A stretch of 64,000 nucleotides of DNA. Source: Arthrinium phaeospermum (lineage: Eukaryota; Ascomycota; Sordariomycetes; Amphisphaeriales; Apiosporaceae). Made by a program: the position numbers and the translations under genes. Of the stretch, positions 24,672-30,257 are shown in pieces. Below the pieces are notes generated by a model. The model worked only from the letters and a program-made list of their open reading frames with translations, made no database searches and was not told the DNA's origin. Where the stretch lies: the NCBI GenBank assembly GCA_006503535.1, contig QYRS01000004.1:3534001-3598000 (forward strand), given 5' to 3'. Numbering within the stretch: position 1 is the stretch's first letter; each line of letters begins with the position of its first letter.

Positions 24672-27600
24672 TTAATCCGGCACCCCCCCCCTGATGGGCA
24701 AGCCTCCGTGTGATGACCAAAGGTCAACCGTCAAAGCCTGGACCCAGGATTGAAGGCCAACGTCTCTGCAAAAGTCCAGCAGGTCGGGCACGTCGCCTTC
24801 CTCCCGCAGTAGCCAGTATCTCTCCCACATCCCCTTCAACATATACCACACCATCAAGCCTGGTTTGGATCCCTGCTCTTCGGCTGATTTAGCGTGTACG
24901 AACAGCTGCGTCGTGGCGTAGTGCATCAGTGCCGGGAAGGTCTTGAGCACTCTCGTGTGTCCAAAGCTCAAGTCTTCGGTGGAGTTCGGTTGGATCAGAG
25001 CGCGGGCGTTACTTGGGTCGCTGTCGTCTTGTGTCAAGAATCGTCGCATAATCTCCTTTTCGCGCTCTTCTTTGAACCCTGCCATTGCTTCCTTGGATAT
25101 CTTGTATTCTTGGTACCAAGGTTTCCTACTCGTTCGTTTTGACGGAGAGTCCAAGGTTGTACGAGATGAATCGGAACCTCCGTTATAGCTAATGAAAGAC
25201 TCCCTCCTCTTTTTGACCTCCTGGGACCGACTAGAAAGCTCACCACCATCGGACCCGGCTGAACTGAAGCTAGCAACGCTACCTTCACGCTTGATGCTCT
25301 TACGTCTGAAGTGAATAATCGTTGTTGGAGAATCCGCTCTGGGATCCCCACTGACGGCTTTGGCGCGACTCAGTGTTTCCACCTCCATTGCCGATCTTCG
25401 AGCGTTTACCAACTCATCGAGTTCGATAACGTTCAAGTACGCAAGGCAAGTGACCATGATGTTGAAATGGCCTTCTGATAAGGTTGTGGACAGTGGTTGC
25501 CCGGGCATCCAAACAACTGTCGCGGAGTCCACATTTCCTCGCTCGATGAGGTAATTTCGATATGCCGAGAGCAAGATCTCGAAGCCGTTTCCTTGTAGGA
25601 AGAACTGCGCAACAGAATCATGAATTGTCTCGACCGAGCGTGTCTCCCCGTCATTCATTTCCAGCGAACCAGCGCCCCCTTTCTCAGAATCCATATCAGT
25701 TGAGACTTCGTCTCCATCCAGCAACCGCAGCTCAGCTGTGCGCTTCACTTCGACCAGCCCTCTAGAGACTTTACGAATCTTTCTCTCAAGTTGTTCGTCG
25801 TTTTCGCTAAATAATGACGAATCCGCAGCACTTTCTAGTGACACGGGGTGTATTTCTTGAAGAAAGGGAAATATATGATGCCATTCTCTTAGGCGTAAAC
25901 GATGCGTACTCAGAATGGCCCAGAGGAAGAATTTGTATGTGACAATGGAATCCTCCGTTGCAGGTATGTCTGTCAAAAGCTCTCGATAAAGATCGCTGAG
26001 CTTTTGTGGTACCTCTGACAACCGTTTCATGATTGAGTTCCAGTTCTCCCCTTTTTCGTGGTCGTCCAGGACCAAATTGGTCATAAGGACCGCCCACAGA
26101 AAAACACCCTGTGACTTGCTTGCAATAGTATCTGCAAGCAATGTAGATCGGGCATCAGTGGATATTTCGCTCTCGGAGAAGACCTTTGTAACATAACTCG
26201 AGATGTCGCCCTTGTTGTGGTCGTCTATGGTAACCACTAGGGAGTTTTTGAGGGCGTTGTGGTAAGAAGACCTGCTTGAGATGCAAACTTTCAGCACGCC
26301 TCGATCGACGAGATCATGAAGATCCCGCACAATGCGCCTATCCTGGCCGTGATTGCACTCGTCCAACGCGTCAATAAAGAATAGCACCCGTCTTTGGGAA
26401 CGTTGAAGATCCTTCAAAAGCCTTTGCAGTGCTATTTTCAACACTGCTTCTGTCCATTGTTCTGGTCTGGAAGTGGTGCCGCTACCCTTGGAGTAGATCC
26501 AGCCCGGGCAACACCGATGGAGGAAACTCCAGCATAGATTGTCGTCTTGGATAACCAGTTGGTAGATTAAAGATCTGTACATGCCAAGCTCGTTGTGGTC
26601 AAGTTCATTGGCAGATCTGGCGTTGAAAAAGTGGCTAGCAACCGTACAGTCTTTGAAGCTTGGATCCTGCGTTGTGGCTCTCATTAAAGTAGATTTTCCG
26701 GATCCAGGCTTTCCTCTTATCCAAAGTAATCCCGGTACTTCTTCAGGGTGATTGCTTCGCTGCCATGACCGGAAATGCGGGTTGTCTCTCAACCAAATAC
26801 ACGTGCCTCGTTGCGGAAGGTTGATAGAATTCTCACGGTGTCTCATCTGATCGAATGCGAGTGTTTGTATAAGATCTAAGTAGGTTAGTAGACGCGAATA
26901 AACATATGTATGTGGAGAATAGGAGTGAGTGAATAGAATTACCTTTCTCGCGGGAAGAGAGCTCGACGTTTTCTCCCTTACTGGAGTCCCCTGTACTGAG
27001 GAGCTGGCTGGATGTCGGCTTTCTGGATTCCGTAGCCTGGTAGACACACACAATGCCGAGACACTGACACAACGAACAACTAGGAACACTTCCGTTGCAT
27101 CTTTTCTGGCGCATGTGGCAGTGTTCGCAGGGGTGATATGCATTGCGTCTTAGTGAAGTAACAGATGCCGACTCAGTATCACCATCGGATTGTGGAGTTG
27201 TGTGTTGGCGCTTCCGTTTCCTGCTGATATCTTCGTACCACGAATGCAACTCGCCAATCGTGGCCATGTAGTTCGGGTCAGAACTCGATGCAACCCGAAC
27301 GATGTCCCTGTGGTTCCCTTGGAGAGTTTCTGCTTCTTCGCGTGGATCATCAAGCTTCGAAGAGGAGTCAGGGACAACCTATGCAACAGCGTCTCAGTCA
27401 GTAATGATTATGATGGAAGATCATCTGATTTCAACGCAACGAAATATATTGTGGTGAAGATGATATACAACATACCTTTTCGTTCAAGACTCCGAGACTA
27501 ACAGCAGTTAGTCCTGCACCCTCCTGGAAAGTCTTGACTTGGAACTCATATCTTCGCCAAAGCCTGGTGAAGGCTTCCTGTGATCGCTCAAGATCGGTTG

Positions 27601-28381
27601 TTCTCAAGCCCAGAGAATCAAGCAGAGCTGAATTGGTGTCCAATAGTATGCTTGCAGCTTTCCTTGCCACCTCACCGTAGCCGGCTAGATCTTTACTGCC
27701 TCTGTGAGGGGTCCCAAAGAACATGATAGCAGCGGTAGATGCAACGATGTTCTGATGCTTGTCGTTCTCTGAGATATCGCATTGTGCGAGCATCTAGAAT
27801 AGTTACTAGCCGTCCCCGTATAGGCCGGATTTTACGTCAAGAGGGCAATTGTACAGCACCAGGGAACGGATGCATACTTCCTTGACAACAATTCCACCCA
27901 GAGAGTGCGCAATGAAAATGATAGGCCGGGAACGGACGGCCACCCGCCCCAAGGCGAATAGGAAATTCTTTGCATGAGTGAAAAGGCTCGACTTATCGGC
28001 AGACTTGAAGCCTTTGGTGACCATTGAGTCATATCCCCAGGTTAGGATCCGAGCTCTCGGCAGATCGACAGGCAACAGATCCTTTGGCCAATAACAAGTA
28101 GTGGCCCAAAGTCTTCCATCTCCTTGTGGATTTATGTTGTTTTCCTCATGGACTGTCCTGGATCTAAGTCTGCCTCCCACCCATTTTCGTAGGCTGTCCC
28201 CCTTCTTCGGTTTGGCTGAATCATGTTTTGGTTGGTGATTGGGAGTGAGCGACCTGGTCGCCGTCCATGTTCGGACCGGATGGCCCTGAATCCCATGCAC
28301 AAATACGATGTCCACAATGGGTTCGCTGTTGGGCTCAAAAATAACGGAAAGACCAATGCTTGAAATATCCCCAGTCGTCAT
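24672..28381 (-). CDS. NOD-like receptor: alpha/beta hydrolase - Zn2Cys6 zinc cluster - NACHT
   Basis: Four exons: 28381-27878, 27793-27476, 27378-26943, 26875-24672, all junctions in frame, about 1153 residues. Residues 1-300 are a lipase/SesB-like alpha/beta hydrolase: FVHGIQGHP near 27, nucleophile Ser160 in AHSLGG, FFGTPHRGS after the first splice, likely His297 in QGNHRD. Residues 327-331 are RKRKR, a possible nuclear signal. Residues 358-385 are a textbook fungal zinc cluster, Cys358-x2-Cys361-x6-Cys368-x6-Cys375-x2-Cys378-x6-Cys385 with the usual basic RQKR between the second and third Cys. NACHT follows: Walker A GKPGSGKS at 474-481, Walker B RVLFFIDALDE near 582-592. The C-terminal 500 residues contain no ankyrin, WD40 or TPR repeats that I can see. 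Fungal hydrolase-NACHT proteins are known as putative non-self recognition switches. The embedded zinc cluster is what is unusual. No gene boundary (stop, polyadenylation or start) separates the parts. Confidence 0.88.
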
Positions 28382-29459: not shown

Positions 29460-29603
29460 GCACTTGCTGGTCTGCTGGTCTCGACTTTCAACTACGAATA
29501 CTACAACTGCAGCCTCAACAAACCAAACTTTCACCAAGTACAGAGGTAAATACCACTCTAGAAAAGCCGTATCGACCGCCTTTCTACTGAGATCGCCATC
29601 AGC

Positions 29604-30257
29604 ATGCAACTACACGCCATCATAGCCCCTTTTCTCCTGTGCCTCGGCGCCCATGCAGCCACCAGTATCAGCGAGGTCTTGAGAAGCCTCCCCAATGGCG
29701 GCTACATCACCAAAATGCCAGATCCCAGCAAGGGCAACCTTGTGAACATCACCGACCTGGATGGAAAGCCAGTCCCAGGATCCCCCTTTACGATCGACCA
29801 CGACACTGGCGCCCGTAGACCACACACCCATGAAGAGGATACCTGGGGTGTAAGTACCCCCCCCCCCCCCCCCCCCCCCCCTCCCCAAGTAGAACTGATG
29901 ACCCCAGCTTTGATTAACCCGTTGCTTCTGGTACAGTGCGTCGACGGCGAAAAACTCGACCAGGTGAACTGGTGGGTCGGCCGCGGCGCCCTGGACGCCT
30001 GGTGCGGCGACCTGGGCCAGGGCCGTATGCTACTGGAAGACCACATCTACAGCTGGCAGTACAACGGCACCACGGCCTTCATCTGCAGCTACGACGGGGG
30101 GCAGAGCTGCCTGGGCCAGGACTACGTCGCCCACATGAGGAGCATCGCGGACAACTGCGGCGAGCTCGGTGCGGGATGGTACTATCAGGTCGCCGGCAAC
30201 CAGCTGTACGGGCGAGGGGTGGTAGGGGGGAAGAGCGATCCGTTTGCGATCTGCTAG
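29604..30257 (+). CDS. Small secreted cysteine-containing protein
   Basis: Exons 29604-29849 and 29937-30257, 188 residues. The signal peptide is residues 1-19 (LHAIIAPFLLCLGAHA). The mature part has DLDGKPVPGSPFTID, HTHEEDTWG, then CVDGEKLDQVNWWVGRGAL, CGDLG, CSYDGGQSC, CGELGAGWYY, and ends in DPFAIC: six cysteines in the second exon, which suggests three disulphides. I do not recognise the family. Size, secretion and Cys content are effector- or antimicrobial-like, but that is inference. The intron holds a long run of C just after the GTAAGT donor. If the intron is ignored, reading continues through the run as poly-Pro, but the spliced junction (DTWG|CVDGEK) is cleaner. Confidence 0.8.
   Translation: MQLHAIIAPFLLCLGAHAATSISEVLRSLPNGGYITKMPDPSKGNLVNITDLDGKPVPGSPFTIDHDTGARRPHTHEEDTWGVSTPPPPPPPPPQVELMTPALINPLLLVQCVDGEKLDQVNWWVGRGALDAWCGDLGQGRMLLEDHIYSWQYNGTTAFICSYDGGQSCLGQDYVAHMRSIADNCGELGAGWYYQVAGNQLYGRGVVGGKSDPFAIC
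29857..29881 (+). repeat. Homopolymer of 25 C inside an intron
   Basis: An uninterrupted run of C begins six bases after the start of the GTAAGT donor and is followed by TCCCC. Length is likely variable in nature or uncertain in assembly. Confidence 0.85.

Follow-up and report, generated by a model that had tools for sequence, protein, structure and literature searches.

A Zn2Cys6 cluster between the hydrolase head and the NACHT switch of a NOD-like receptor from Arthrinium phaeospermum, possibly an integrated bait

Fungal NOD-like receptors (NLRs) in which an alpha/beta-hydrolase precedes a NACHT domain have been described as sesB-like receptors (excerpts of PMC4986451 and PMC9815663). A survey of Sordariales NLRs with non-canonical domains lists 57 with zinc fingers and nine with a C-terminal CHK2-like kinase, places the extra domains mainly at the C-terminus and presents candidate kinase decoys (PMC12258605, excerpts). 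In plants, the rice receptor Pik-1 carries an HMA domain between CC and NB-ARC (PMC8294853, excerpts). Here, we describe a gene in a 64,000-nucleotide stretch of the A. phaeospermum genome (contig QYRS01000004.1, positions 3,534,001 to 3,598,000; hereafter the window) whose predicted product resembles the sesB-like fungal receptors in its hydrolase-like head and NACHT/NPHP3_N domain and contains, in the linker between them, a Zn2Cys6 cluster of the transcription factor type. The same module order was found in Apiospora rasikravindrae (P0001), in a metagenome protein that begins at the end of the hydrolase (P0003) and in Fusarium proliferatum (P0047), and its presence in the window is therefore no coincidence; the search among other fungi that the first-pass annotation of this DNA had proposed was thus positive.

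Four minus-strand exons, separated by three GT..AG introns (Table 1), join in frame to 3462 nucleotides and 1153 residues, with the terminal stop as the sole stop codon. The start codon is predicted, and the P0001 gene model starts further upstream; at the junction of intron 2 (LNEK/VVPD), a related locus of the same genome, L032, has an intron-like insertion. The deduced protein is a fungal NOD-like receptor of the STAND class (signal transduction ATPases with numerous domains) with a SERAC1/PGAP1/sesB-like alpha/beta-hydrolase head, a NACHT switch and a fast-varying C-terminal part. Its earlier designation as a hydrolase-NACHT receptor is supported by NPHP3_N (97.1 bits) and NACHT (29.6 bits, cut-off 26.7), both above the Pfam cut-off, and by intact Walker motifs; the head has the AHSLGG motif and a DUF676 match below threshold (16.4 vs 20.3 bits). 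Two Fusarium homologues of P0047 carry the source name SERAC1, and a Foldseek search of the P0047 model against the PDB returned a thioesterase only at rank 49; its top rows (8bob, a maltose-system regulator entry, ORC/Cdc6 and CED-4 chains) have no bearing on the cluster. Among C-terminal superstructure repeats (ANK, WD40, TPR), Pfam at E 0.1 found no repeat family in the window protein; many relatives among the matches listed have ankyrin repeats and many others have none.

The six Cys of the linker follow the spacing C-x2-C-x6-C-x6-C-x2-C-x6-C and fit the Zn2Cys6 family as first proposed, and the Zn_clus profile PF00172 scores above its Pfam cut-off (23.3 vs 21 bits; 29.3 bits for exon 3 in a six-frame profile search of the genome). 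Against solved structures, exon 3 matches the cluster of LAC9 (E 0.0018) and, more weakly, those of Cep3, PPR1 and Gal4 (E 0.045 to 0.49). The basic stretch RKRKR predicted before the cluster was also located. Pfam found no Fungal_trans domain in the window protein, NCBIfam no family on P0001, P0003 and P0047, and Rfam no match in the 64-kb window.

Exon 3 holds both the hydrolase end and the cluster and splices in frame to the NACHT lead-in, which agrees with the initial proposal of three modules in one reading frame. Hydrolase head, cluster and NACHT very likely form one gene, because P0003 is a single open frame from the hydrolase end through the cluster to NACHT, with the equivalent of intron 3 apparently read through, and because the module order recurs in P0001, which is 69% identical across 100% of the query. 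A gene-model error, that is, two adjoining genes or removal of the cluster from the mature message by splicing, seems very improbable to us: the P0130 model of another Fusarium, which skips the cluster region, speaks for it, and the exon shared by hydrolase end and cluster, the open frame of P0003 and the cluster within the gene models of P0001 and P0047 speak against it.

Clusters in this position are rare. Our 182 homologues came from three lists, one of them targeted; one search gave the best 120 of 779 proteins, mostly from named Sordariomycete genera or metagenomes, and the nearest named full-length relative among the matches listed is from Apiospora. Four of the 182 show the six-Cys pattern, three in the linker (P0001, P0003, P0047) and one at the C-terminus (P0029), so that the carriers are at least these; the UniRef names of P0001 and P0047 include a Zn(2)-C6 fungal-type domain. 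The C-terminal Zn_clus match of P0029 lies just under the cut-off and was not taken as a gain in the linker. When the linker was measured from the GE motif to Walker A, for which 142 of 183 proteins (query included) have both anchors, its three longest versions were the three with a cluster (173 residues in P0003, 157 in P0047, 155 in the window), whereas the other 139 have 60-135 residues, usually about 100 and without a cluster. P0001 has the cluster and lies outside this count, as its model has no Walker A anchor. Linkers contain a median of two Cys (n=142), compared with eight in the window and P0003 and six in P0047; the cluster-free P0035 also has six.

In the A. phaeospermum genome itself, scoring of all 149 candidates gave 121 NPHP3_N matches, some of them fragments of the same gene, and scoring of 150 out of 225 candidates gave at least 143 Zn_clus matches. 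On visual inspection, and among NACHT genes that the NPHP3_N model detects, only the window gene has the two within 5 kb of each other, and six-frame translation of the related loci L032, L033, L034 and L035 revealed no six-Cys pattern. In P0005 (A. hydei), the linker contains an apparent decayed second half of the cluster, with a score reached by 0 of 500 shuffles in comparison with P0003, by 16 with P0001 and by 70 with the window; no convincing remnant was detected in the linkers of P0004, P0006 and P0007 (best, P0004 against P0001, 7 of 500 shuffles). P0002 (87% identity over 63% of the query) starts, in a different frame, inside the stretch equivalent to the DNA that encodes the cluster, apparently because its model ignores an intron; a cluster would be consistent with this sequence, which was left uncounted.

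P0047 is a distant relative of the window receptor and has its Zn2Cys6 cluster in the same hydrolase-NACHT linker. This linker is 157 residues long, as opposed to 96-102 in seven close Fusarium relatives without the cluster (P0132, P0131, P0090, P0103, P0121, P0124 and P0127), which can be aligned to it on both flanks; P0138 lacks the cluster too. Grouping of the cluster-bearing rows into one clade was rejected for NACHT (46 rows, P value of the approximately unbiased test, p-AU, 2.4e-56) and for the hydrolase, there both with the three rows that show the cluster held together (43 rows, p-AU 3.5e-4) and with P0130 labelled as cluster-bearing (52 rows, p-AU 6e-50). The label of P0130 derives solely from its flanking residues and the tests were repeated without it; the groups compared in the trees were defined with the cluster already known. 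P0130 has flanks like those of P0047 up to the first Cys, where its model jumps past cluster and Walker A. Furthermore, Cys 3 and Cys 4 are five residues apart in the P0047 cluster versus six in the Apiospora-type clusters, and the P0047 cluster finds its best matches in other genome clusters than the Apiospora-type ones do. This pattern suggests that a Fusarium receptor separately gained a cluster at this linker position. In the NACHT tree P0047 is the sister of P0130, a relationship that the hydrolase tree does not show; modules seem to have been exchanged by recombination among the Fusarium receptors P0047, P0130, P0131 and P0132.

A candidate origin of the Apiospora-type clusters emerged from comparison with the 106 complete six-Cys clusters of the genome. 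The clusters of the window, P0001 and P0003 have a common best match, the second cluster of an open frame with tandem clusters on C1 (locus L058), on which longer queries agree. A Fungal_trans domain (35.7 bits) lies behind this frame in another frame, and an intron between them is required if the two are one gene. P0003 scores 119, a value attained by the nearest neighbours of only two of the 106 genome clusters. It is this score and the agreement of the three clusters, not the window cluster alone, that suggest the C1 tandem-cluster factor as the source. One mark of NLRs with integrated domains (NLR-IDs), in which this domain binds a pathogen effector and thereby triggers the receptor, is the kinship of a non-canonical domain with another cellular protein, and such kinship exists here with the second cluster of the C1 frame to which a Fungal_trans domain is linked.

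The cluster changes fast around a fixed frame. All six Cys are kept in four of four linker clusters, and those of the window, P0001 and P0003 further share an Arg, Pro, Gln, Gly-Ile and Tyr. Identity between the window receptor and P0001 is 86% in the hydrolase, 38% in the linker before the cluster, 60% in the cluster and 77% in NACHT (177 of 241 positions aligned); for P0003 the values are 38% in the linker before the cluster, 40% in the cluster, 58% in NACHT and 65% in the part that follows.

In Gal4, Lys18 hydrogen-bonds guanines of the CGG triplet (excerpts of PMC5559640 and PMC3384613). We tallied this position with the reading frame fixed in 98 places plus the eight of L001-L008, which make up the 106; of 142 places fetched, 36 were set aside because their six-Cys pattern was incomplete, in many cases apparently through interruption by introns. 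Lys or Arg occupies it in 96 of the 106 genome clusters (80 Lys, 16 Arg), His in six, and Gly, Asn, Gln and Cys in one each. Three of the four linker clusters (window, P0001, P0047) have the Gln seen in that one genome cluster, and P0003 has Lys. The net charge of the core is +2 in the window, -1 in P0001, +6 in P0003 and +5 in P0047, with a genome median of +4 (first 60 sampled), and the basic patch is RKRKR in the window, SKRKH in P0003 and absent in P0001. The idea of a receptor that binds DNA or reports directly to chromatin is thus not supported, given the Gln at the Lys18 position, the negative charge of the P0001 cluster and the lack of RKRKR in P0001. Gln on its own would still be compatible with DNA binding, because Pho7 has Asn there and yet has a DNA binding site (PMC5559640, excerpts).

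Our preferred reading, held with a confidence somewhat short of even, is that the effector-NACHT linker took up the Zn2Cys6 domain from a transcription factor and that this domain acts as an integrated bait in a fungal NLR. We favour it because of the second gain in Fusarium, the candidate donor factor, the fast divergence and the loss of the DNA-reading Lys/Arg; the order and frame shared with P0001 and P0003, the apparent half-cluster of P0005 and the plant precedent of the Pik-1 HMA for such a position also count in its favour. Of the two functions that the first-pass annotation had considered, the decoy fits best. We infer zinc binding, bait function, ligand, activation and output as follows. 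The cluster would still fold around zinc, of which the Zn2Cys6 family binds two ions, and resemble a factor of the same cell. It would be bound by a component with which an intruder (mycovirus, bacterium, mycoparasite or incompatible nucleus) targets such factors. Binding would release NACHT, the receptor would oligomerise, and the hydrolase would be switched on and lead to cell death or arrest. The wider proposal is doubtful, although it deserves consideration: the hydrolase-NACHT linker would be a repeated integration site for DNA-binding domains of transcription factors as baits, the factor at C1:1521651-1524357 would be the guarded one, and the NLR-ID principle would have evolved convergently with plants at the same place. 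To our knowledge, little is known of the signals to which fungal NLRs respond. If the cluster is a bait whose candidate original lies in the same genome, the question becomes testable, by asking what binds both the receptor cluster and the factor cluster, and the Fusarium gain makes effector-NACHT linkers worth a systematic search for captured domains.

Several observations weigh against the bait. The donor match of the window cluster itself is ordinary (score 95, which the nearest neighbours of 65% of the genome clusters reach or exceed) and that of P0001 is low (score 85, reached or exceeded for 92%). Formally, the occurrence of the cluster in two clades might also go back to a single old gain followed by many losses, or to movement of the domain from one receptor to another. 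The P0001 model has no Walker A stretch, and P0130 lacks both cluster and Walker A; these models may be annotation errors or decaying genes. In the 64-kb window we saw no second NPHP3_N match and no neighbouring receptor partner comparable to the paired helper NLR of some plant systems, the nearest other NPHP3_N matches lying outside it at C4:3531554 and C4:3603620. The AlphaFold models of P0047 and P0003 (mean predicted local distance difference test score, pLDDT, 73.9 each) represent NACHT well, and in P0047 most of the hydrolase, and have low confidence in the cluster region (block means of about 28-47 for residues 363-438 of P0047 and about 45-63 for residues 81-120 of P0003). Since a linker cluster occurs in only three of 55 (P0047) and three of 40 (P0003) rows of the underlying alignments, the models neither support nor refute the cluster fold.

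Fast divergence of the cluster also fits relaxed constraint, and the insertion might simply be tolerated or structural, either a neutral cluster or one that has no bait role and provides a hinge or dimer contact responsive to zinc or redox state. This explanation, which we consider unlikely on balance but serious, can draw on the variable linker with its low model confidence, on the divergence of cluster and linker, on the apparent decayed remnant in P0005 and on the possible decay of the P0001 and P0130 genes. It sits poorly with six Cys and a spacing that are kept while the residues around them change, with the rarity of Cys-rich linkers, and with the same kind of domain at the same place in two separate clades. 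Less probable still, in our estimate, is a working nucleic-acid-binding module that serves as chromatin tether or as sensor of foreign or misplaced DNA, with NACHT relaying the signal to the hydrolase. DNA binding may persist in some members, because P0003 keeps the Lys, within an Arg-Lys pair, and a net charge of +6; the family match to Gal4-type domains, the basic patches of the window and P0003, and the C2H2, HLH-like and Zn2Cys6-like C-terminal domains of other family members point the same way. The replacement of Lys/Arg by Gln at the guanine contact in the window, P0001 and P0047 argues against such a module, as do the charge of -1 and missing basic patch of P0001 and the lone cluster, behind which the sequence reveals no evident dimerisation helix.

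Other features of the family and of the locus were recorded alongside (Table 1). C-terminal extra domains were seen in P0094 (zf-C2H2_fungi, 69.4 of 27 bits), P0052 (C2H2, 23.7 of 25.2), P0092 (HLH-like, 18.3 of 20.7) and P0029 (Zn_clus, 20.1 of 21); domains of transcription-factor type apparently recur at the C-terminus of this receptor family, with three of the four matches just under the cut-off. Fusarium models including P0125, P0128, P0129, P0136 and P0138 are annotated as fused to PF00083 (sugar transporter) or PF20684 (PTH11-like), which perhaps reflects merged neighbour genes or a conserved neighbourhood. A motif S-[VI]-A-[ST]-[FY]-x-S-[AT]-[GSA] (e.g., SVASFGSASS) is present in 80 of 183 proteins including the query (79 of 182 homologues), often behind basic residues. 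It recurs in the C-terminal part of hydrolase-NACHT receptors, which varies in other respects, and could be a phosphorylation or docking site. Six of eight open frames of the window match AA9 with CBM1, a BNR-repeat protein, a Y-family polymerase, an amidase, an amino-acid transporter and an FAD/BBE oxidase, and two have no match. A run of about 30 C at 29857-29886 lies inside the plus-strand open frame 29562-30257 and would encode a stretch of prolines; the protein may be secreted and has no Pfam match.

Table 1. Features of the receptor gene in window coordinates, and the candidate donor factor in genome coordinates
Feature	Position	Strand	Description
Exon 1	27878..28381	-	residues 1-168; hydrolase-like head, nucleophile-elbow motif AHSLGG (Ser160)
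Intron 1	27794..27877	-	84 nt, GT..AG
Exon 2	27476..27793	-	residues 169-274; rest of hydrolase-like domain
Intron 2	27379..27475	-	97 nt, GT..AG
Exon 3	26943..27378	-	residues 275-420 (first base of codon 420); hydrolase C-terminus, linker, Zn2Cys6 cluster
Basic stretch RKRKR	27208..27222	-	residues 327-331
Zn2Cys6 cluster	27031..27135	-	residues 356-390; six Cys within 358-385; PF00172
Intron 3	26876..26942	-	67 nt, GT..AG; holds CTACTAAC, branch-site-like
Exon 4	24672..26875	-	residues 420-1153; NACHT lead-in, NACHT, C-terminal part, stop
NPHP3_N/NACHT NTPase	26271..26807	-	residues 443-621; Walker A GKPGSGKST (474-482) and Walker B LFFIDALDEC (584-593), both intact
Motif SVASFSSAGS	25251..25280	-	from residue 952, C-terminal part; recurrent across the receptor family
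Candidate factor	C1:1521651-1524357		tandem cluster, Fungal_trans-linked

The first-pass annotation knew of no described system of this architecture. In general this did not hold, as zinc fingers and candidate kinase decoys in fungal NLRs have been published; it did hold for the Zn2Cys6 type and for its place between effector and NACHT, neither of which we found in the literature searched (subscription papers and preprints lay outside it). The terms zinc, Zn_clus, decoy, DNA-binding and transcription factor have no occurrence in PMC9815663 and PMC4986451, and in excerpts of PMC4859500, PMC6560777, PMC12134995, PMC6034849, PMC3778014 and PMC3942035 NLRs and Zn2Cys6 proteins appear only apart, as separate gene families or matters. 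With the Sordariales NLRs (PMC12258605, excerpts), the window receptor shares an extra domain, an integrated-decoy reading and a fusion from an identifiable cellular gene; the zinc fingers there are C2H2 or treble clef (ZZ, C1, FYVE, TRASH) and form the C-terminal or sole N-terminal domain, and the main-text sections on extra domains, as excerpted, name neither Zn2Cys6 nor an internal place. Extra zinc fingers in fungal NLRs are thus known, and the Zn2Cys6 type and the linker position appear new relative to the literature searched. The window cluster belongs to the same six-Cys family as Gal4, LAC9 and PPR1, yet unlike in Zn2Cys6 transcription factors it is accompanied by no Fungal_trans domain, is not N-terminal and has Gln at the Lys18 position, where Lys/Arg is usual, not universal. 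Pik-1 differs from the window receptor in kingdom and in modules; the two are alike in carrying a foreign domain between an N-terminal effector and a nucleotide-binding domain.

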